DNA of 25,831 nt from a virus. The stretch's first letter is position 1; each line of letters begins with the position of its first letter. Below the pieces are notes generated by a model. It ran no database searches and had not been told where the DNA came from. It worked only from the letters and a program-made list of their open reading frames with translations. Below are positions 13,681-25,092 of this stretch, one piece after another. The stretch spans positions 1-25,831 of IMG/VR virus record IMGVR_UViG_3300021138_000151. The stretch is one strand, 5' to 3'. Both the position numbers and the translations under genes were made by a program.

Positions 13681-13688
13681 TATAAATA
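13681..13688 (+). promoter_or_regulatory. T4-type late promoter for gene 23
   Basis: Exact TATAAATA in the 46-base gap between genes 22 and 23. The predicted start near 13694 leaves about 28 leader bases with an AAAGGAGA ribosome binding site, fitting the most abundant virion protein. Confidence 0.8.
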
Positions 13689-13721: not shown

Positions 13722-15122
13722 ATGTATCTAGCTGAGGAAATCCAAAAGAAGTGGGCACCAGTGCTCGACCACGATGCTCTTGGTAGCATTAAGGACCAAC
13801 ATCGCCGTTCTGTAACTGCCATTATGCTCGAAAATACCGAGAAGGCACTTATGGAATCAGGTGCTCATGGTCAGTATCAGACTATCACCGAAACACTAGG
13901 CTCTTATCAGTCTGCAGTACCTGCAAACTATATGGGTGGTTCATCTTCAACTTCTGGAACAGGTGGCATTGACACTTTCGATCCAGTATTGATTTCACTT
14001 GTACGTCGTGCAATGCCAAATCTTATTGCCTATGACATCTGCGGCGTTCAGCCAATGACTGGTCCAACTGGCCTTATTTTTGCAATGCGTTCTAAGTACA
14101 ACGATCAATCAAACGGTAGCATGGGTGCCAATGGCGTCCAGTCAAACGAAACCTTCTATAACGAAGTAAACACTGCGTTCTCTTCTGTTACTGGTGGTGG
14201 AAACACTCTTGGTGATAACTTTACTGGCACTATTCCAGGTGATACTGGTACTAGTCCATTAACATCACTTGCTAACTATAATACTGGTGGTGGTATGTCA
14301 ACTGCTCAGGCAGAAGCACTTGGCACTTATGGTAACACTGATTTTGCTCAGATGGCTTTCAGCATCGAGAAGGTAACTGTTACTGCTAAGTCACGTGCTC
14401 TAAAGGCAGAATACTCAATGGAACTTGCACAGGACCTTAAGGCAATTCATGGTCTTGATGCAGAAACTGAACTTTCCAATATTCTTTCAGCAGAAATTCT
14501 TGCTGAAATCAACCGTGAAGTTGTTCGTGAAATCAACATCACTGCTGTAGTTGGTGCTCAGGACAATACAACTACTAATGGTGTCTTCGATCTTGACACT
14601 GACTCAAACGGTCGTTGGTCAGTTGAAAAGTTCAAGGGTCTTATGTTCCAGCTTGAAAGAGAAGCTAACCAGATCGCCAAGCAGACACGTCGTGGTAAGG
14701 GTAACATTGTTATTTGTTCTTCAGACGTTGCGTCTGCTCTACAGATGGCTGGTGTTCTTGACTACACTCCTGCTCTTAACAGCAACAACCTACAGGTAGA
14801 CGATACTGGTAATACTTTTGCTGGTATCCTAAACGGTCGCTTCCGTGTTTACATTGACCCATATGCTCTTGGTGGTAATTATATCACTGTTGGTTATAAG
14901 GGTTCGTCAGCATTTGATGCCGGCTTGTTTTATTGCCCATACGTTCCTCTACAGATGGTACGTGCAGTTGATCCATCAAGCTTCCAGCCAAAGATTGGTT
15001 TTAAGACACGTTACGGAATGGTAGCCAATCCATTTGCTGAAGGTCTTAACAAGGGTTATGGTGTTCTTGGACTTTCAACTAATAAGTACTATCGTCGCGT
15101 TATTGTTAACAACCTAATGTAA
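13722..15122 (+). CDS. gp23: Major capsid protein precursor gp23
   Basis: 466 residues, HK97-fold major capsid protein of the T4 type. The N-terminal ~60 residues (YLAEEIQKKWAPVLDHD and on) are the scaffold-like propeptide; (I/L)xE sites LME (43-45) and ITE (55-57) are candidates for gp21 cleavage. The conserved VLISLVRRAMPNLIAYDICG, QPMTGPTGLIFAMRSKYN and EKVTVTAKSRALKAEYSMEL, then AQDLKAIHGLDAE, all match T4-like gp23. The Gly/Thr/Ser-rich segment around residues 155-200 is the expected insertion-domain region. Codon use shifts to more C-ending codons than in the neighbours, common for a very highly expressed gene. A strong hairpin follows in the next gap. Confidence 0.97.
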   Translation: MYLAEEIQKKWAPVLDHDALGSIKDQHRRSVTAIMLENTEKALMESGAHGQYQTITETLGSYQSAVPANYMGGSSSTSGTGGIDTFDPVLISLVRRAMPNLIAYDICGVQPMTGPTGLIFAMRSKYNDQSNGSMGANGVQSNETFYNEVNTAFSSVTGGGNTLGDNFTGTIPGDTGTSPLTSLANYNTGGGMSTAQAEALGTYGNTDFAQMAFSIEKVTVTAKSRALKAEYSMELAQDLKAIHGLDAETELSNILSAEILAEINREVVREINITAVVGAQDNTTTNGVFDLDTDSNGRWSVEKFKGLMFQLEREANQIAKQTRRGKGNIVICSSDVASALQMAGVLDYTPALNSNNLQVDDTGNTFAGILNGRFRVYIDPYALGGNYITVGYKGSSAFDAGLFYCPYVPLQMVRAVDPSSFQPKIGFKTRYGMVANPFAEGLNKGYGVLGLSTNKYYRRVIVNNLM

Positions 15123-15132
15123 AATATATATT

Positions 15133-15158
15133 TTTATAGTCAACTTAAAGACTATAAA
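15133..15158 (+). other. Nine-base-pair hairpin after gene 23
   Basis: TTTATAGTC (15133-15141) and GACTATAAA (15150-15158) are perfect inverted copies around an 8-base loop, 11 bases after the gene 23 stop. There is no T run downstream, so it does not look like an intrinsic terminator. It could protect the 3' end of the gene 23 message. Confidence 0.5.
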
Positions 15159-15161
15159 CGA

Positions 15162-15169
15162 GATAAATA
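15162..15169 (+). promoter_or_regulatory. Late-promoter-like GATAAATA inside the 5' arm of the homing endonuclease hairpin
   Basis: GATAAATA differs from the T4 late element by one base. The identical variant stands before the tail gene at 15960. With T4 spacing the transcript would begin near 15175, after nearly all of the 5' arm of the hairpin at 15165-15196, leaving the ribosome binding site GGGAG (15187-15191) unpaired. Confidence 0.5.
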
Positions 15170-15198
15170 CTCCCGAGGGCAACTTCGGGAGTATTTTT
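15165..15198 (+). terminator. Terminator hairpin after gene 23 that also covers the next ribosome binding site
   Basis: AAATACTCCCGA (15165-15176) and TCGGGAGTATTT (15185-15196) are a perfect 12-base inverted repeat around an 8-base loop, ending in TTTTT (15194-15198). It looks like an intrinsic terminator for gene 23. Its 3' arm contains GGGAG (15187-15191), seven bases before the ATG at 15199, the only plausible ribosome binding site for the next gene. Confidence 0.85.
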
Positions 15199-15822
15199 AT
15201 GTCTAAAGAAAAGTATGGATTTGTCTATCTCTGGTTAGATAGAAAGCACAAACGCTATTATGTAGGATGTCACTGGGGATCTATAGATGATGGATATGTC
15301 TGTTCATCTCCCTGGATGATACAGGCATATAGAATTAGACCTCAAGATTTTAAGAGAAGAATCTTGAAAACTAACATTCTATCTAGACCTGAACTTTACG
15401 AAGAAGAGCAAAGATGGCTTGATCTTATTAAACCAAATGAGATAAAGCCACACAACGACAAGCCAAGATACTATAATCTTCAAATAAGAAACAATAATAC
15501 TTGGCACAAGTATGATGAACATATCAAGACAGTTGGTCAAAAGATCTCAGCTTCTAAGAAGGGTAAGAAGACCGGTCCTAGACCAGAAGTCGGACCAGCT
15601 ATATCTGAAGCTAAGAAAGGTAAACCACTGACCGAAGAACACAAGACCGCCCTCAGGGGCATCAAGAAGCCAGCTCGCACTGAAGAATGGAAACGACAGA
15701 ACTCAGAAAAGTTTAAGCAGCTATGGTCAGATCCAGAGTTCAAAGCCAAACAGACTGAAGCCAGAAAAGTAGCTTGGATTAAAAGACGACAAAAGATAAA
15801 TAGTAATGAACTTGCTCATTGA
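15199..15822 (+). CDS. Free-standing GIY-YIG homing endonuclease
   Basis: 207 residues. The N-terminal GIY-YIG domain shows GFVYLW (7-12) and RYYVGCHWG (19-27), the two tyrosine-bearing strands, then DDGYVCSS, YRIRPQDFKRRIL with basic residues, and ELYEEEQRW containing the expected metal-binding Glu. From about residue 110 come NUMOD3-type DNA-binding motifs, ISASKKGKKTG and ISEAKKGKPLTEEHKTALRG, and a basic C-terminus. This is the layout of Seg-type mobile endonucleases of T4-like phages, which cut a cognate site in related genomes and spread by repair. It sits alone between gene 23 and the tail-tube-like gene, with hairpins on both sides. Codon use (many AGA, more G+C) differs from its neighbours, suggesting recent arrival. 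Confidence 0.92.
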   Translation: MSKEKYGFVYLWLDRKHKRYYVGCHWGSIDDGYVCSSPWMIQAYRIRPQDFKRRILKTNILSRPELYEEEQRWLDLIKPNEIKPHNDKPRYYNLQIRNNNTWHKYDEHIKTVGQKISASKKGKKTGPRPEVGPAISEAKKGKPLTEEHKTALRGIKKPARTEEWKRQNSEKFKQLWSDPEFKAKQTEARKVAWIKRRQKINSNELAH

Positions 15823-15863
15823 AGGCAAGAATGCTACAAGACGGTTTTAAACCGCAAACTAAT

Positions 15864-15886
15864 GGGGTCTTCGGATCCCCTTTTTT
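15864..15886 (+). terminator. Rho-independent terminator after the homing endonuclease
   Basis: GGGGTC (15864-15869), a TTCG tetraloop closed by C-G, then GA-T-CCCC (15874-15880, one bulged T) followed by six T (15881-15886). It lies in the 137-base gap (15823-15959), whose other content is a short palindrome around 15842-15854 and the GATAAATA promoter. Confidence 0.88.
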
Positions 15887-15930
15887 ATTGACTAATACTA
15901 AATATGAAGTTATAATCATCTTGTGAGAAT

Positions 15931-15938
15931 GATAAATA
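15931..15938 (+). promoter_or_regulatory. Late-promoter-like GATAAATA before the tail-tube-like gene
   Basis: GATAAATA, one base from the T4 late element, after a terminator and 22 bases before the start codon at 15960. The predicted start near 15944 leaves a 16-base leader with GGAGA. The preceding terminator makes a promoter here necessary. Confidence 0.6.
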
Positions 15939-15959
15939 TAATTAGAATGGAGAAAGAAT

Positions 15960-16481
15960 ATGTCAGCTGTAGATAGTACACCTACTAATAAGAACTTTTT
16001 AAGTCCGTTAAACTTTACTTTCGTATTGAAAAGATCACCTTATTTAAATTTCTTTGTACAAAGTATTAACATACCTAGTTTATCTTTAGGATCATTTATG
16101 GGTCCATCTCCATTACTTAATATTCCATATTCTGGCGATCATATTGAATATAGTAATTTGCAAGTACAATTTAAAATTGATGAAAATTTTCAAAACTATA
16201 TGGAAATTTTTAATTGGATTAAAGGTTTAGGATATCCTGAAAATCAAACAGAATATCAATATCTTTCTAAACAACCAAAAACTACTGGTGCTGGATTAAA
16301 ATCTGAAATATCTTTAATTATTAGTGATGCTATTAAAAATCCAAATTATGAAATTGTATTTACTGATTGTTTTCCAATAGACTTATCAGAGATAAATTTT
16401 CAAACAACTGATGATAGTGTAAACTATGTTTCTGCTGTTGTCACGTTTAAATATACTTATTTTAATATTATGAAACTTTAA
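15960..16481 (+). CDS. Tail-tube-fold virion protein at the gene 3 position
   Basis: 173 residues. It follows the same plan as gp19 encoded in this window: FFVQSINIPSLSLGSFMGP (about 33-51; compare gp19 FMCQAANLPPATMSSIDVP), VQFKIDENFQNYMEIFNWIK (compare TIMNDEDFTVRSLFEKW), and FTDCFPIDLSEINFQTTDDS (compare GAFPTDVSGIEVNWSSTG). This points to a tail-tube-like fold. In T4, gp48 and gp54 at the tube base are such relatives. In T4-like aquatic phages I recall the gene between 23 and uvsY being labelled gene 3, a tail completion protein of similar length. So it may be a tube-end or tube-initiator protein; which end cannot be told here. It has its own late-type promoter and a GGAGA ribosome binding site. 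Confidence 0.7.
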   Translation: MSAVDSTPTNKNFLSPLNFTFVLKRSPYLNFFVQSINIPSLSLGSFMGPSPLLNIPYSGDHIEYSNLQVQFKIDENFQNYMEIFNWIKGLGYPENQTEYQYLSKQPKTTGAGLKSEISLIISDAIKNPNYEIVFTDCFPIDLSEINFQTTDDSVNYVSAVVTFKYTYFNIMKL

Positions 16482-18422: not shown

Positions 18423-18980
18423 ATGGTAAGAGTAAAAAAGCATTATGTAAATAATAAAACTTTATATGAAGAAATGGTAAAATTTAAAGATAAAACTAAT
18501 AATGCTATCGAAAATAATAAAACATTACCACAAATTCCTAATTATATTGGTCAATGTTTTTTAATGATATGCAATAAATTATCTACTAAACCAAATTTTA
18601 TGAATTATTCATATAGAGATGAAATGGTTGCAGATGCAATAGAAAATTGTGTATCAGCTGCTCATAGTTTTGATCCTTCAAAATCATCTAATCCATTTGC
18701 TTATTTTACTCAGATTGCATGGAATGCTTTTATTAGACGTATTGCTAAAGAAAAAAAACAAGCATATGTAAAACATAAGAATTTTGAATATAGTAATTTA
18801 ATGGTAGAGTTATCAAATGAAAATAATATGATTGACATTTCATATCATAACGAGTATTCTGATGATGTAATTCGAAACTTTGAAGAAAAATTAGTGAAAA
18901 ATGCCAAAAAGAATAAAATTGGTGTTGAAAAATTTGTAGAGGAAGAAATTAATGAAGAATTTGCACCTAGTACCAGTTAA
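18423..18980 (+). CDS. gp55: Late-transcription sigma factor gp55
   Basis: 185 residues, exactly the T4 gp55 length. It is a minimal sigma: YSYRDEMVADAIENCVSAAH and FDPSKSSNPFAYFTQIAWNA, then FIRRIAKEKKQA, match the sigma region 2 helices that bind core polymerase and melt the promoter. It directs host RNA polymerase to the TATAAATA late element; the window carries this element upstream of genes 18, 22 and 23, consistent with this gene's role. The C-terminal tail (after about residue 150) is charged and should contain the short sliding-clamp-binding end, which I cannot confirm by eye. It begins one base after uvsW ends and overlaps the next small gene by 29 bases. Confidence 0.9.
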   Translation: MVRVKKHYVNNKTLYEEMVKFKDKTNNAIENNKTLPQIPNYIGQCFLMICNKLSTKPNFMNYSYRDEMVADAIENCVSAAHSFDPSKSSNPFAYFTQIAWNAFIRRIAKEKKQAYVKHKNFEYSNLMVELSNENNMIDISYHNEYSDDVIRNFEEKLVKNAKKNKIGVEKFVEEEINEEFAPSTS

Positions 18981-19149
18981 TATTATTGATTTAGTTGATA
19001 AACTAAATGATCCTACAATTCGTGAGAATGAGCGTAATAATTATGTGTTTCGGTTGGAAGCTATCCGAGAATATACTAATGTTTGTCTGAATACTTATTC
19101 GAGGGATAAGAATTCATTTTCACATAATCGAAAGAAGTCTACAAGATGA
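18952..19149 (+). CDS. Small conserved protein of unknown function between genes 55 and 47
   Basis: 65 residues, starting inside the end of gene 55, with GAGGAAG near 18939 as ribosome binding site. The first ~45 residues read as a compact helical protein (LVPVNIIDLVDKLNDPTIRE, then NERNNYVFRLEAIREYTNV); the last 15 are basic and Ser-rich. It ends in an overlap with gene 47 (ATGA), so it is translationally coupled to both neighbours. I recall similar small proteins at this place in other T4-like aquatic phages but know no function. No membrane segment and no metal-binding motif are visible. Confidence 0.65.
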   Translation: MKNLHLVPVNIIDLVDKLNDPTIRENERNNYVFRLEAIREYTNVCLNTYSRDKNSFSHNRKKSTR

Positions 19150-20216
19150 AAATTTGTCTTTTGACTGATACACATTGGGGTGTTCGCAATGATAACGTTG
19201 CATTCATGGACAACAGTAAGAGGTTTCTAGACGATGTGTTTTTCCCCTACCTCGATAAGCATGGTATTGTAACAGTCTGTCATCTGGGAGACTTGGTTGA
19301 TCGGCGTAAGTACATTAATTATAATACTGCTCTCCGCCTTCGGGAAGATTTTCTCAATCCGTTATTTGGAAGAGATATCGTTCTACACATTATTGCTGGC
19401 AATCATGACACTTATTTTAAGAACACTAATCGAGTCAATGCACTTCGCGAACTAGTTGACGATAGATACTCTGAACATTTTAAAATCTACGATCAGATTC
19501 CACGCGAGGTGAAGTTTGACAACCTAACTGTACTCATGTTACCATGGATATGTGATGAGAATAGACAAATATGCTTGGATAGAATTAAAAGTACTCCTGC
19601 TCAAATTGTGTTTGGGCATCTTGAACTTGCTGGCTTCGAGATGTACAAGGGTTCTATGGTCAGTCATGGTGACGATCGTGGGGTGTTCTCTCGCTTTGAT
19701 ATGGTTCTTAGTGGTCACTATCACCATCGTTCCTCTGACGGCTCTATCTATTATCTGGGAAGCCACGCGGAATTTACGTGGTCGGATTATAACGATCCTA
19801 AAGGTTTTCACATCTTGGATACAGAAACACGTGAGTTGACTTTTGTTCCAAATCCTTATATAATGTTTGATAAAGTTTGGTATGATGATGTAACTCCTGG
19901 ACATGAACCAGAAGGTATTAATCTTAGTTTGTTAAAAGGTAAAATCATTAAGGTCATCGTTAAGCAGAAAAATGATCCTTATAAGTTTGATAGGTTTATT
20001 GAAGAGCTCGAAAAAGTTGGTGTATTAAGTATGCAAGTAGTTGATGATCATCTTAATCTTGGAACTATAGAAGACGAAAATATAGTTAATGAAGCAGAGT
20101 CTACTATTGATATTTTTAAAAAATATTTAGATATGATTAACTCCCCTAATCTCGATAAAAACAAACTTGAAAAAACAATCGTTGATCTCTATCAGGAAGC
20201 ATTGACTATAGAATGA
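19146..20216 (+). CDS. gp47: Recombination nuclease subunit gp47 (SbcD/Mre11-like)
   Basis: 356 residues (T4: 339). It has the five calcineurin-type phosphoesterase motifs of Mre11/SbcD in order: LLTDTHWGV (D8, H10), HLGDLVDRR, AGNHDTYF, FGHLELAGF and LSGHYHHRS. With gp46 it makes the Mre11-Rad50-type complex that resects double-strand ends for recombination-dependent replication and also helps degrade host DNA. The C-terminal ~130 residues (from about 240) are the capping and gp46-binding part. It overlaps the preceding small gene and gene 46 by four bases each. The first ~700 bases have more G+C and different codons than the AT-rich 3' third. Confidence 0.95.
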   Translation: MKICLLTDTHWGVRNDNVAFMDNSKRFLDDVFFPYLDKHGIVTVCHLGDLVDRRKYINYNTALRLREDFLNPLFGRDIVLHIIAGNHDTYFKNTNRVNALRELVDDRYSEHFKIYDQIPREVKFDNLTVLMLPWICDENRQICLDRIKSTPAQIVFGHLELAGFEMYKGSMVSHGDDRGVFSRFDMVLSGHYHHRSSDGSIYYLGSHAEFTWSDYNDPKGFHILDTETRELTFVPNPYIMFDKVWYDDVTPGHEPEGINLSLLKGKIIKVIVKQKNDPYKFDRFIEELEKVGVLSMQVVDDHLNLGTIEDENIVNEAESTIDIFKKYLDMINSPNLDKNKLEKTIVDLYQEALTIE

Positions 20217-21919
20217 TTTACTTTAAAGTTCTTCGTTGGCGTAATTTTCTCAGTACTGGAAACATCAATACTGAGATTGAACTTAACAAATCAACAAACA
20301 CACTTATTGTTGGCGAGAATGGTGCTGGTAAATCTACCATTCTCGACGCTTTAACGTTTGTATTGTTTGGTAAACCTTTTAGAAAGATTAATAAACCACA
20401 ACTACTTAATTCAATAACTAAGAAAGAATTGGTTGTTGAAATAGAATTTGATATTAGCGGCAATCGTTATAAGATTGTTCGTGGTATGAAACCTAATATT
20501 TTTGAAGTTTATCAAAACGATAATTTACTTAATCAGTCTGCAGAAATGAAAGATTATCAAGAAATACTTGAGAAGCAAATTCTTAAATTAAACTTTAAGT
20601 CTTTCTGTCAAGTAGTTGTTCTTGGTAGTGCTTCATTTGTTCCATTTATGCAATTGCCTGCAGCACAACGTCGCGAAGTAATTGAAGATTTACTTGATCT
20701 ACAAATATTTACTACAATGAATTTACTTCTTAAAGATAAAGTACAAACAAACAATGAAGAGCTTGCTAGTATTGCTAGTGATCAAAAAGTTGTTATGGAA
20801 AAAATTCGAATCATCAAAAATCATCTCCAAGAAAAACAAAATAATAATGAAAAGTTAGTTGCTGAGAAAATTTCTTTAATTGATGATACAAATTATAAAA
20901 TTAAAAAGCTTATACAACAGTATTCAAATTATGATTCAGCTATTAATTCTATGAAAGAAAAGATGGTTGAAGAAAAATCAATCGCTAAACATTTGCAAAG
21001 AGTATCACAGTTTCGACATAAGATAGAAGCAACAGTTGCTATTATTAATAGTGATCTAAAATTTTTTAATGAGCATAAAGATTGTCCTACATGTTCTCAG
21101 GCAATTGATGAAAGTTTTCGAGATAAAGTTGTTTTGGAGAAATCAACACAGCTTCAAAATTCTAATGGAAAACTTGAACTACTTGCGAAAGAATATGATG
21201 ATGCTAATGCTAAATTGAATGAATTAATCGAAGTTCAATCAAATATCAATACAAAGCAAATGGAACAATTTAGAGTCAAGAGTAATATTGATTCGTTGAC
21301 CAAGTATCTAGAACAACTTGAAAAAGAAATTAAAAATATCAACGCTGTTCATGAGGCGGACGAAGAAGATAAGATGTCTGAATTAGAAATTGAATTGAAT
21401 TCAGTAGCTGCAAGATATAATGATGCTATGGATCAAAAACAAATATATGTAGCTGCTTCTATAATGTTAAAAGACAGTGGAATTAAAGCTAGGATTATTA
21501 AACAATATGTACCAGTTATCAATAAGCTTATTGGGAAGTACCTTAGCGCTATGGACTTTTTTGTTCAATTTGAGTTGGATGAAGAATTTAATGAAACTAT
21601 CAAATCAAGATTCCGTGATGACTTTAGTTACGCATCTTTCTCAGAGGGGGAAAAGATGCGAATTAATCTTGCTATACTTTTCACTTGGCGTGCTGTTGCA
21701 AAATTGCGTAATTCTGTCAGTACTAACCTTCTCATTCTTGATGAGATAATGGATAGTTCATTGGATTCGAATGGAACTGAAGAATTTTTAAAAATTATAA
21801 AAGAGTTGACTTCTGATACTAATACCTTTATTATTAGTCATAAAGGTGATCAACTATTTGATAAATTTTCAAATATTCTTAAATTTGAAAAATATAAAAA
21901 TTTCTCTAGAGTAGCATAA
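20213..21919 (+). CDS. gp46: Recombination nuclease ATPase subunit gp46 (SbcC/Rad50-like)
   Basis: 568 residues (T4: 560). It has Walker A GENGAGKST at 34-42, an N-terminal coiled coil, the zinc-hook CPTC at 291-294 in the middle, a second coiled coil, the ABC signature FSEGEKMRINLA at 476-487 and Walker B LLILDEIMDSSLD with D510/E511. This is the full Rad50/SbcC plan in short form. It binds gp47, and ATP-driven opening and closing controls end resection. The ATGA overlap with gene 47 keeps the subunits balanced. Its stop codon overlaps the ATG of the next small gene. Confidence 0.95.
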   Translation: MIYFKVLRWRNFLSTGNINTEIELNKSTNTLIVGENGAGKSTILDALTFVLFGKPFRKINKPQLLNSITKKELVVEIEFDISGNRYKIVRGMKPNIFEVYQNDNLLNQSAEMKDYQEILEKQILKLNFKSFCQVVVLGSASFVPFMQLPAAQRREVIEDLLDLQIFTTMNLLLKDKVQTNNEELASIASDQKVVMEKIRIIKNHLQEKQNNNEKLVAEKISLIDDTNYKIKKLIQQYSNYDSAINSMKEKMVEEKSIAKHLQRVSQFRHKIEATVAIINSDLKFFNEHKDCPTCSQAIDESFRDKVVLEKSTQLQNSNGKLELLAKEYDDANAKLNELIEVQSNINTKQMEQFRVKSNIDSLTKYLEQLEKEIKNINAVHEADEEDKMSELEIELNSVAARYNDAMDQKQIYVAASIMLKDSGIKARIIKQYVPVINKLIGKYLSAMDFFVQFELDEEFNETIKSRFRDDFSYASFSEGEKMRINLAILFTWRAVAKLRNSVSTNLLILDEIMDSSLDSNGTEEFLKIIKELTSDTNTFIISHKGDQLFDKFSNILKFEKYKNFSRVA

Positions 21920-24246: not shown

Positions 24247-25092
24247 ATGTCTAAAATTAAAGTAGCAGAACTATTTTACTCGCTTCAAGGTGAAGGTCAG
24301 TATCTTGGAACACCCAGCGTATTTCTTCGTGTATTTGGCTGTAATTTTCAGTGTGCTGGTTTTGGAATGCCTAGGGGCGAACTCTCACAAGAGAGAATGG
24401 CTATTGATCCTACTAATTTTGAGTCTTACAATAGTTTGCCTCTTGTTCACACTGGATGTGATTCATATGCTTCTTGGGATCCGAGATTTAAACATCTCTC
24501 TTCAATGAGATCAATTGACTATATTGTAGACATGATGCAGGAATTGCTTCCTAATGGAACATTTGGTCCAGATAAGCATCTTATTATTACTGGAGGCGAA
24601 CCTCTTCTTGGATGGCAACGTTCATATATTGATTTGTTTGAAGAAATTAAACGTAGAGATATGAACCTTACTCACGTTACATTTGAGACAAATGGTACTC
24701 AACCATTACACAATGATATTAAAGAATACATCGAAAATAATTGGATTGATATTACATTTTCTGTATCGTCAAAACTTCCTTCTTCTGGTGAAAAATGGGA
24801 AAATGCTATTAAGCCCGATATTATCGGAGAGTATATGTATTACAGCAATTTGACTTATTTCAAATGGGTTGTATCTTCTGAAGAAGATATTATTGACATT
24901 AACAAAGCAATTATGTATTATAATTCAGTAATTAATACTAATAATACACCTATCTATATTATGCCAGCTGGCGGCACTACAAAGATATACGATAATAATG
25001 AAAAGTGGGTGGCTGATATGTGTATGAAGAATGGTTGGAGATATACTCCTCGTCTTCAAGTTCAGCTTTGGAAAAATGCGTGGGGAACTTGA
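24247..25092 (+). CDS. queE: QueE-like 7-carboxy-7-deazaguanine synthase (radical SAM)
   Basis: 281 residues. AELFYSLQGEGQYLGTPSVF (7-26) is the QueE N-terminus, followed by LRVFGCNFQC with C32 and C36, LIITGGEPLLGW (SAM-binding GGEP) and THVTFETNGTQPL. The enzyme rearranges 6-carboxytetrahydropterin to 7-carboxy-7-deazaguanine using a 4Fe-4S cluster. The third cluster cysteine normally follows two residues after the second (CNLRCVWCDT). Here 34 residues intervene, and the matching segment TGCDSY has C71. So the motif is C-x3-C-x34-C. The rest of the fold is complete, so it is probably active. It sits between queD and the TGT-like gene, one base before the latter. Confidence 0.9.
   Translation: MSKIKVAELFYSLQGEGQYLGTPSVFLRVFGCNFQCAGFGMPRGELSQERMAIDPTNFESYNSLPLVHTGCDSYASWDPRFKHLSSMRSIDYIVDMMQELLPNGTFGPDKHLIITGGEPLLGWQRSYIDLFEEIKRRDMNLTHVTFETNGTQPLHNDIKEYIENNWIDITFSVSSKLPSSGEKWENAIKPDIIGEYMYYSNLTYFKWVVSSEEDIIDINKAIMYYNSVINTNNTPIYIMPAGGTTKIYDNNEKWVADMCMKNGWRYTPRLQVQLWKNAWGT

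Follow-up and report, generated by a model that had tools for sequence, protein, structure and literature searches.

A single hairpin lying directly upstream of a homing endonuclease gene probably acts at once as the transcription terminator behind the capsid gene, as a lock on the ribosome binding site of the endonuclease and as the late promoter of an inserted endonuclease cassette. The hairpin is found in a 25.8 kb fragment (25,831 nt, referred to at its full length as the window) of an uncultured T4-like phage. On this fragment, genes for terminase, sheath, tube, portal, protease and scaffold are followed by gene 23, which encodes the major capsid protein (13722–15122, + strand; Pfam Gp23, E 8.4e-150), and then, after a gap of 76 bases, by the endonuclease gene (15199–15822, + strand). 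Beyond the latter come a tail tube-like gene (15960–16481, + strand; PHROG 45 tail tube, E 5.3e-33), which is the ancestral right neighbour of gene 23, then uvsY, uvsW and the gene for a gp55-type late sigma factor (18423–18980, + strand; PHROG 234 late sigma transcription factor, E 3.4e-53), the protein needed to read the late promoter box. A late sigma factor is also encoded in nine of the nine larger relatives that were tested. The head-tail adaptor gene of the window belongs to PHROG 211, and SbcCD-like nuclease genes and a QueE-like radical SAM gene (19146–21919 and 24247–25092) lie 3' of the late sigma factor gene.

The endonuclease is a free-standing protein of 207 amino acids, which matches PHROG 314 (homing endonuclease) with E 9.4e-16. 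Its AlphaFold model (pLDDT 88) has as its best PDB match the catalytic domain of I-TevI (1mk0; probability 0.99, E 0.03, TM about 0.5), while searches of Pfam and NCBIfam gave nothing above cut-off, the weak match to SegE_GIY-YIG falling below the Pfam threshold. Five residues, Y10, Y21, R53, E70 and N93, are invariant in 28 homologues and are, by analogy, the putative active-site residues of a GIY-YIG nuclease. Taken with the structural model, the protein is predicted to be a seg-like GIY-YIG enzyme of the homing type.

The stem of the hairpin (15165–15196, + strand; fold and covariation) is made up of a 5' arm, AAATACTCCCGAGG (15165–15178), and a 3' arm, CTTCGGGAGTATTT (15183–15196), which are closed by a GCAA loop (15179–15182). 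An earlier note on this DNA described a perfect hairpin of 12 base pairs, which is correct if an 8-base loop is drawn; the full stem has 14 pairs with the GCAA loop, the 12 being extended by one G-U and one further G-C pair. The same note placed the ribosome binding site of the endonuclease within the 3' arm and its start codon directly after the T run, and both placements are borne out by the sequence, in which GGGAG (15187–15191, + strand) lies 7 bases 5' of the ATG at 15199 and the T run (15194–15198, + strand; sequence and terminator scan) abuts that codon. The complement of the site, CTCCC (15170–15174, + strand; sequence and fold), is located between the promoter box and the predicted start of transcription. 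Fold z-scores of -5.0 and -6.5 were obtained in two runs, with none of 200 shuffles equally stable. Moreover, this is the sole hairpin in the 25.8 kb window with at least 12 pairs and at least 5 G-C pairs, a hairpin of that kind occurring anywhere in three of 20 dinucleotide shuffles of the whole window. The features of an intrinsic terminator are present, namely a G+C-rich stem, a short GCAA tetraloop and a T run, with the AAATA of the promoter box doubling as the A tract of the stem; the terminator scan is positive, such that termination is predicted here. In a fold of 15121–15240, an A+T-rich hairpin (15133–15158, + strand) also forms between the gene 23 stop and the promoter, and many of the homologous loci linked to gene 23 carry a hairpin of other sequence at this place.

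The late promoter box itself is GATAAATA (15162–15169, + strand). The corresponding box of T4, TATAAATA, spans positions -13 to -6 and is variable in its first base among relatives, that of Aeh1 being CTAAATA (PMC1524935); the box described here begins with G where that of T4 has T. Eight of the 32 TAAATA words on the + strand lie 15–60 bases before a listed gene start, a zone which takes up 5% of positions (p = 1.4e-4). Such boxes precede genes 18, 19, 22, 23 and the tail-tube gene, the box of gene 23 being TATAAATA (13681–13688, + strand; late-box scan of the window) and that of the tube gene being once more GATAAATA (15931–15938, + strand; sequence scan). In other words, the box at 15162–15169 exceeds a chance word, and the late promoter which had been proposed for the 5' arm is upheld by the box, by the enrichment of TAAATA before gene starts and by the presence of a gp55 gene. 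A further GATAAATA occurs at 15795–15802, within the 3' end of the endonuclease gene and before the displaced terminator described below.

Since the T4 box spans -13 to -6, the predicted start of late transcription falls at 15175 (+ strand), the same position as had been put forward from T4 spacing, and a start there takes away 10 of the 12 bases of the 5' arm, again as proposed. Calculated accessibilities of the ribosome binding site are in keeping with this position. In the folded read-through RNA of gene 23 the site is paired and its accessibility is 8.5e-5 (about 0.0001), as would be expected of the predicted seal. Starts at 15174–15177 give 0.61–0.76, and RNA that begins at 15175, from which the box and CTCCC are both absent, gives about 0.75, a value held below 1 by weak leftover structure; for a start at 15170 the accessibility is just 0.01. 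The proposed release of the site on loss of the 5' arm is, in this way, supported computationally. Across 26 sealed homologues, the median accessibility stays at ~0 as far as a start at +1 after the box and is highest at +5/+6, matching the start position of T4. Two marks of I-TevI-class control are seen in these predictions: the ribosome binding site is paired in RNA from upstream, and the predicted late start removes the 5' arm.

The mechanism that we infer from the established sequence, folds, homologues and displacement of the old terminator, as regards start site, termination, untranslatability and benefit, is as follows. The endonuclease cassette would have been inserted directly 3' of the gene 23 stop and 5' of gene 23's terminator. 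In the RNA of gene 23 the hairpin would form fully and most transcripts would end at the T run; in those that read through, the ribosome binding site of the endonuclease would be paired and the gene left untranslated. The gp55-RNA polymerase would read GATAAATA in the DNA of the 5' arm and start near 15175, and the new RNA, being without the box and CTCCC, would carry neither terminator nor seal and would be translated from a leader of ~24 bases. The displaced terminator of gene 23 would then end the endonuclease message, with the tail-tube gene retaining its own late promoter. The cassette would thus be its own transcription unit, shielded from the very strong transcription of the capsid gene, and the capsid gene would gain a replacement terminator.

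The gap between gene 23 and the tube gene occurs both with and without an endonuclease gene, its flanks being continuous, and comparison of the two states, a check advocated by the earlier note, favours this mechanism. Of 46 relatives lacking the endonuclease, 44 have, in this order behind gene 23, a terminator, a separate TAAATA box and the tube gene, and in only one of the 46 does the box lie inside the terminator arm. By comparison, 28 of 34 homologues behind gene 23 have their predicted start within the terminator's 5' arm (p 1e-14 against the 1/46). This difference bears on the possibility that the hairpin is a terminator and nothing else, in which case GATAAATA would be an ordinary A tract, the ribosome binding site would overlap the stem for lack of space and a trickle of endonuclease would come from read-through. 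A tracts opposite T runs are usual in intrinsic terminators and the terminator scan is positive here, but an A-tract-only reading of GATAAATA is rejected by the comparison of endonuclease-bearing with empty gene 23 ends. Furthermore, the spacing of the box exactly fits the T4 start, a late sigma factor is encoded in the window with similar boxes before other late genes, and at 10 of 20 sites behind genes other than gene 23 the box and seal are kept with the terminator altogether absent. We regard a role in termination only as very unlikely.

The hairpin is also not the terminator with which gene 23 began. The segment between the endonuclease and the tube gene (15823–15959) aligns to the gene 23–tube gap of an endonuclease-free relative, L149, with a local score z of 16.7, the z for the gap before the endonuclease being much less, at 3.9; within it, AAGACGGTTTTAAACCGCAAACTAATGGGGTCTTCGGATCCCCTTTTTT matches AAGACGGTTTCAAGCCGCAAACTGGGGAGCTTCGGCTCCCCTTTTTT at the end of gene 23 in L149. 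This alignment places the ancestral terminator of gene 23, now displaced, at 15864–15886 (+ strand), 3' of the endonuclease. A T run and then a box precede the tube gene in 19 of 20 such post-endonuclease segments. Because an L149-like terminator lies behind the endonuclease, the cassette would appear to have entered between the gene 23 stop and its terminator and to have supplied a new one. The suggestion that the hairpin is the host gene's terminator stands in part, in that it is terminator-like and lies behind gene 23, and fails in part, in that the original has been displaced; the candidate identification of the hairpin as ancestral is rejected.

Eroded copies of the cassette exist. Behind gene 23 in L083, L072 and L089 (also in L071 and L126), on the minus strand, the endonuclease gene is reduced to between 8 and 42 codons with the promoter-hairpin intact, and in L072 and L089 the old terminator is still found 3' of the eroded gene. 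In L047 (2106–2147), gene 23 is followed by the same hairpin and then directly by the tail-tube gene, the endonuclease being absent; here the lock may have been adopted by a virion gene or may be a remnant of loss. A small protein (M-I/H-PVDQEFFYDKGEIGDCVRAVTASILEL...) is encoded just 5' of the endonuclease gene, or else accompanies this hairpin behind gene 23, in L070, L128, L129 and L110, as well as in L229, L248 and L281, and appears from its positions to be a passenger of the cassette.

The left end of the cassette may be marked by AATATATATTTTT (15123–15135, + strand; motif count), which lies directly 3' of the gene 23 stop. A motif like (A)ATATACTTTT is present in the first 25 bases after the stop at 34 of 52 endonuclease-bearing sites, as opposed to one of 46 empty gene 23 ends. 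Motifs of this kind also sit behind unrelated host genes (L242, L287, L290, L104 and others). The motif at 15123–15135 is possibly the left end of the cassette, or otherwise a candidate operator at which the endonuclease would bind and repress its own expression, as I-TevI does at its promoter.

Homologues were sought with the endonuclease as query and with an alignment of 28 homologues, giving 57 distinct upstream regions that were not chosen by pattern. Within this homology-selected material, 39 endonuclease genes have both a box and a recognisable ribosome binding site, and in 27 of them the site pairs with the promoter-to-start region, compared with two of 42 tail-tube genes of the same phages having the same type of box (p 7e-10); the homologues are related, and these counts are not of independent events. 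Seal and release together were observed in 14 of the 39, as against a mean of 3.3 of 39 after shuffling of the stretch from box to site and of the bases 3' of the site. Covariation points in the same direction, with changes on both sides at five of 11 stem pairs and 94.7% of cells paired, versus at most 60% when slid, in a set which was picked for hairpin and box and which supports the pairing but says nothing on its frequency.

About a third of the homologues linked to gene 23, as in L010, L272 and L267, have the promoter inside the terminator arm and the ribosome binding site outside. Since sites of the L010 class keep the promoter in the terminator with the ribosome binding site outside, sealing would seem, from these sequences, to be frequent but optional at gene 23, and the promoter within the terminator to be the constant feature there. 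Some sealed homologues (L022, L250, L277, L283) have an arm without the box. A third class of leader (L016, L019, L020, L023, L253, L259) has box and terminator, followed by another conserved hairpin (TGTCCGTCGCGG...CCACGGACTC) and by a small one at the ribosome binding site.

Homologues of the endonuclease are also found behind the head-tail adaptor gene, the sheath gene, gp17 and others, mostly within ~100 bases of the stop codon. The frequency of sealing is similar at both kinds of site, being 18/34 behind gene 23 and 12/20 behind other genes (p 0.78), whereas a hairpin scored as a terminator is found in 31/34 of the former and 0/20 of the latter. For the class of L016, L019, L020 and L023 the terminator count is that of the first detector, since their terminators escaped a second one that covered the last 75 bases alone; behind the sheath gene in L024, a T run can be seen by eye that falls below the detector thresholds. 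The hairpins behind gene 23 are the stronger (median -20 vs -12 kcal/mol, p 1.6e-4) and have T runs, which the others do not. On sequence grounds, terminator and seal appear to be separable, and we infer that termination by the hairpin is required behind gene 23, whose old terminator has been displaced, and has to be avoided inside late operons.

These same data weigh on the converse proposal, in which the hairpin is only a seal, undone by the late promoter, that does not stop the polymerase, such that a single message carries both gene 23 and the endonuclease. The T run is indeed short (five T, then ATG) and preceded by A, the base of the stem is A-U, and sealing is seen behind genes that lack terminators. 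Set against this are the greater strength and the T runs of the gene 23-linked hairpins, along with the displacement of the old terminator, for which a substitute would be needed. We therefore hold a purely sealing role to be distinctly unlikely and retain the reading in which the hairpin behind gene 23 terminates as well as seals.

To the earlier note the arrangement looked like an economical variant or independent invention; it is not a single invention of that kind, as the element recurs behind gene 23 and other late genes, with other endonuclease families and before some virion genes. A scan for the pattern TAAATACTCC-N-GGAGTATTT-ATG found at least 119 stretches. Among the matches listed, this endonuclease family accounts for about one-third of the distinct proteins encoded downstream, others being further GIY-YIG enzymes, HNH endonucleases and virion proteins; versions outside the family are, again among the matches listed, weaker on average (median -12 vs -18.5 kcal/mol). 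That the element is exclusive to endonucleases is accordingly rejected, the pattern also occurring before genes for tape measure, sheath, tube and baseplate lysozyme and before other endonuclease families. An isolate, Rhizobium phage RHph_I1_18, has the full element (GATAAATACCTCGG...CCGAGGTATTTTTATG) between its tail-tube and portal genes, and related elements are found in Sinorhizobium phages phiM12 and phiN3. The DLP6 gene between gene 23 and tube was considered as an endonuclease with the same element and rejected, its annotation being that of an exonuclease and its terminator a plain one.

As to what is gained from the seal, insulation from capsid read-through is likelier than timing, since gene 23 is itself late, with a TATAAATA box of its own. 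Timing is nevertheless the accepted reason in the T4 cases, where the known sealed genes are all carried on early or middle messages and their expression is timed by the late promoter (PMC2988022). Were the same to apply here, the seal would be directed at early or middle read-through RNA from upstream, and a long transcript of that kind across the region may be conceived. However, the gene in front is late, virion genes stand on both sides and a middle promoter was not identified; temporal control on the I-TevI model is accordingly rather unlikely. The overall picture, to which we give somewhat better than an even chance, is of a travelling cassette with, at its left end, a promoter nested in a terminator that locks the ribosome binding site. 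Such a cassette would take over the termination of a strong late gene and reuse the displaced terminator for itself, becoming an insulated unit whose deletion would be costly to the capsid message, with its hairpin adapted to each site, so that it terminates behind gene 23 and forms a weaker, non-terminating seal in late operons. This would show how a selfish gene can settle, without disturbing its neighbour, beside the gene that a virus expresses most strongly. It would extend the T4 lock from timing to insulation, in a compact natural insulator design where 32 bases make up a terminator, a translational lock and a promoter, the roles being tied by base pairing. The prediction is sharp, with a start at 15175 and 3' ends at 15196–15199, and an element that can be recognised by pattern offers a means of locating, in T4-like phages known only from uncultured material, endonuclease genes so far undescribed as well as late promoters.

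A search of the literature outside subscription papers found no description of a hairpin combining terminator, lock and promoter, and no relevant paper turned up when the literature was searched for promoters located within terminators. The precedent of I-TevI, a sealed site with the late promoter inside the hairpin, was correctly cited by the earlier note (PMC2988022). In T4 I-TevI, I-TevII and I-TevIII a hairpin likewise hides the ribosome binding site, and RNA from the gene's own late or middle promoter cannot form it (PMC2988022); I-TevI and I-TevII are moreover GIY-YIG endonucleases, as here, but all three are encoded within group I introns, in early or middle genes. In I-TevII, as read from the T4 record, the complement of the ribosome binding site is 5' of TATAAATA, the loop region contains the box and a T run is absent, whereas in the present case the box forms the base of the stem, box and start flank the complement, and the hairpin is terminator-like. 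T4 segD, between genes 23 and 24, is also a GIY-YIG endonuclease adjoining gene 23, but is in the opposite orientation with a promoter not found (PMC2988022). The seg43 gene of Aeromonas phage 25 resembles the L010 class in having a very stable hairpin beside the ribosome binding site of a seg-type endonuclease, although the site is outside the hairpin and an embedded late promoter is not mentioned (PMC2988022). T4 mobE and segF, unlike the present gene, have terminators inside their own coding regions. The T4 genes e, soc and 49 are similarly late genes translated only from RNA that starts within a sealing hairpin (PMC3014915), but they are the phage's own, immobile genes, and their hairpins are not described as terminators. 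The free-standing segB of T4 and mobE of Aeh1 share the hairpin-sealed ribosome binding site with a late promoter in the hairpin region (PMC2988022), and differ in being sited in the tRNA region and the nrd genes, on early or middle messages, with a sealing hairpin for which a terminator function is not reported. The seal with an embedded late promoter is therefore already known, from I-TevI and mobE, and it is the added terminator that appears to be new.
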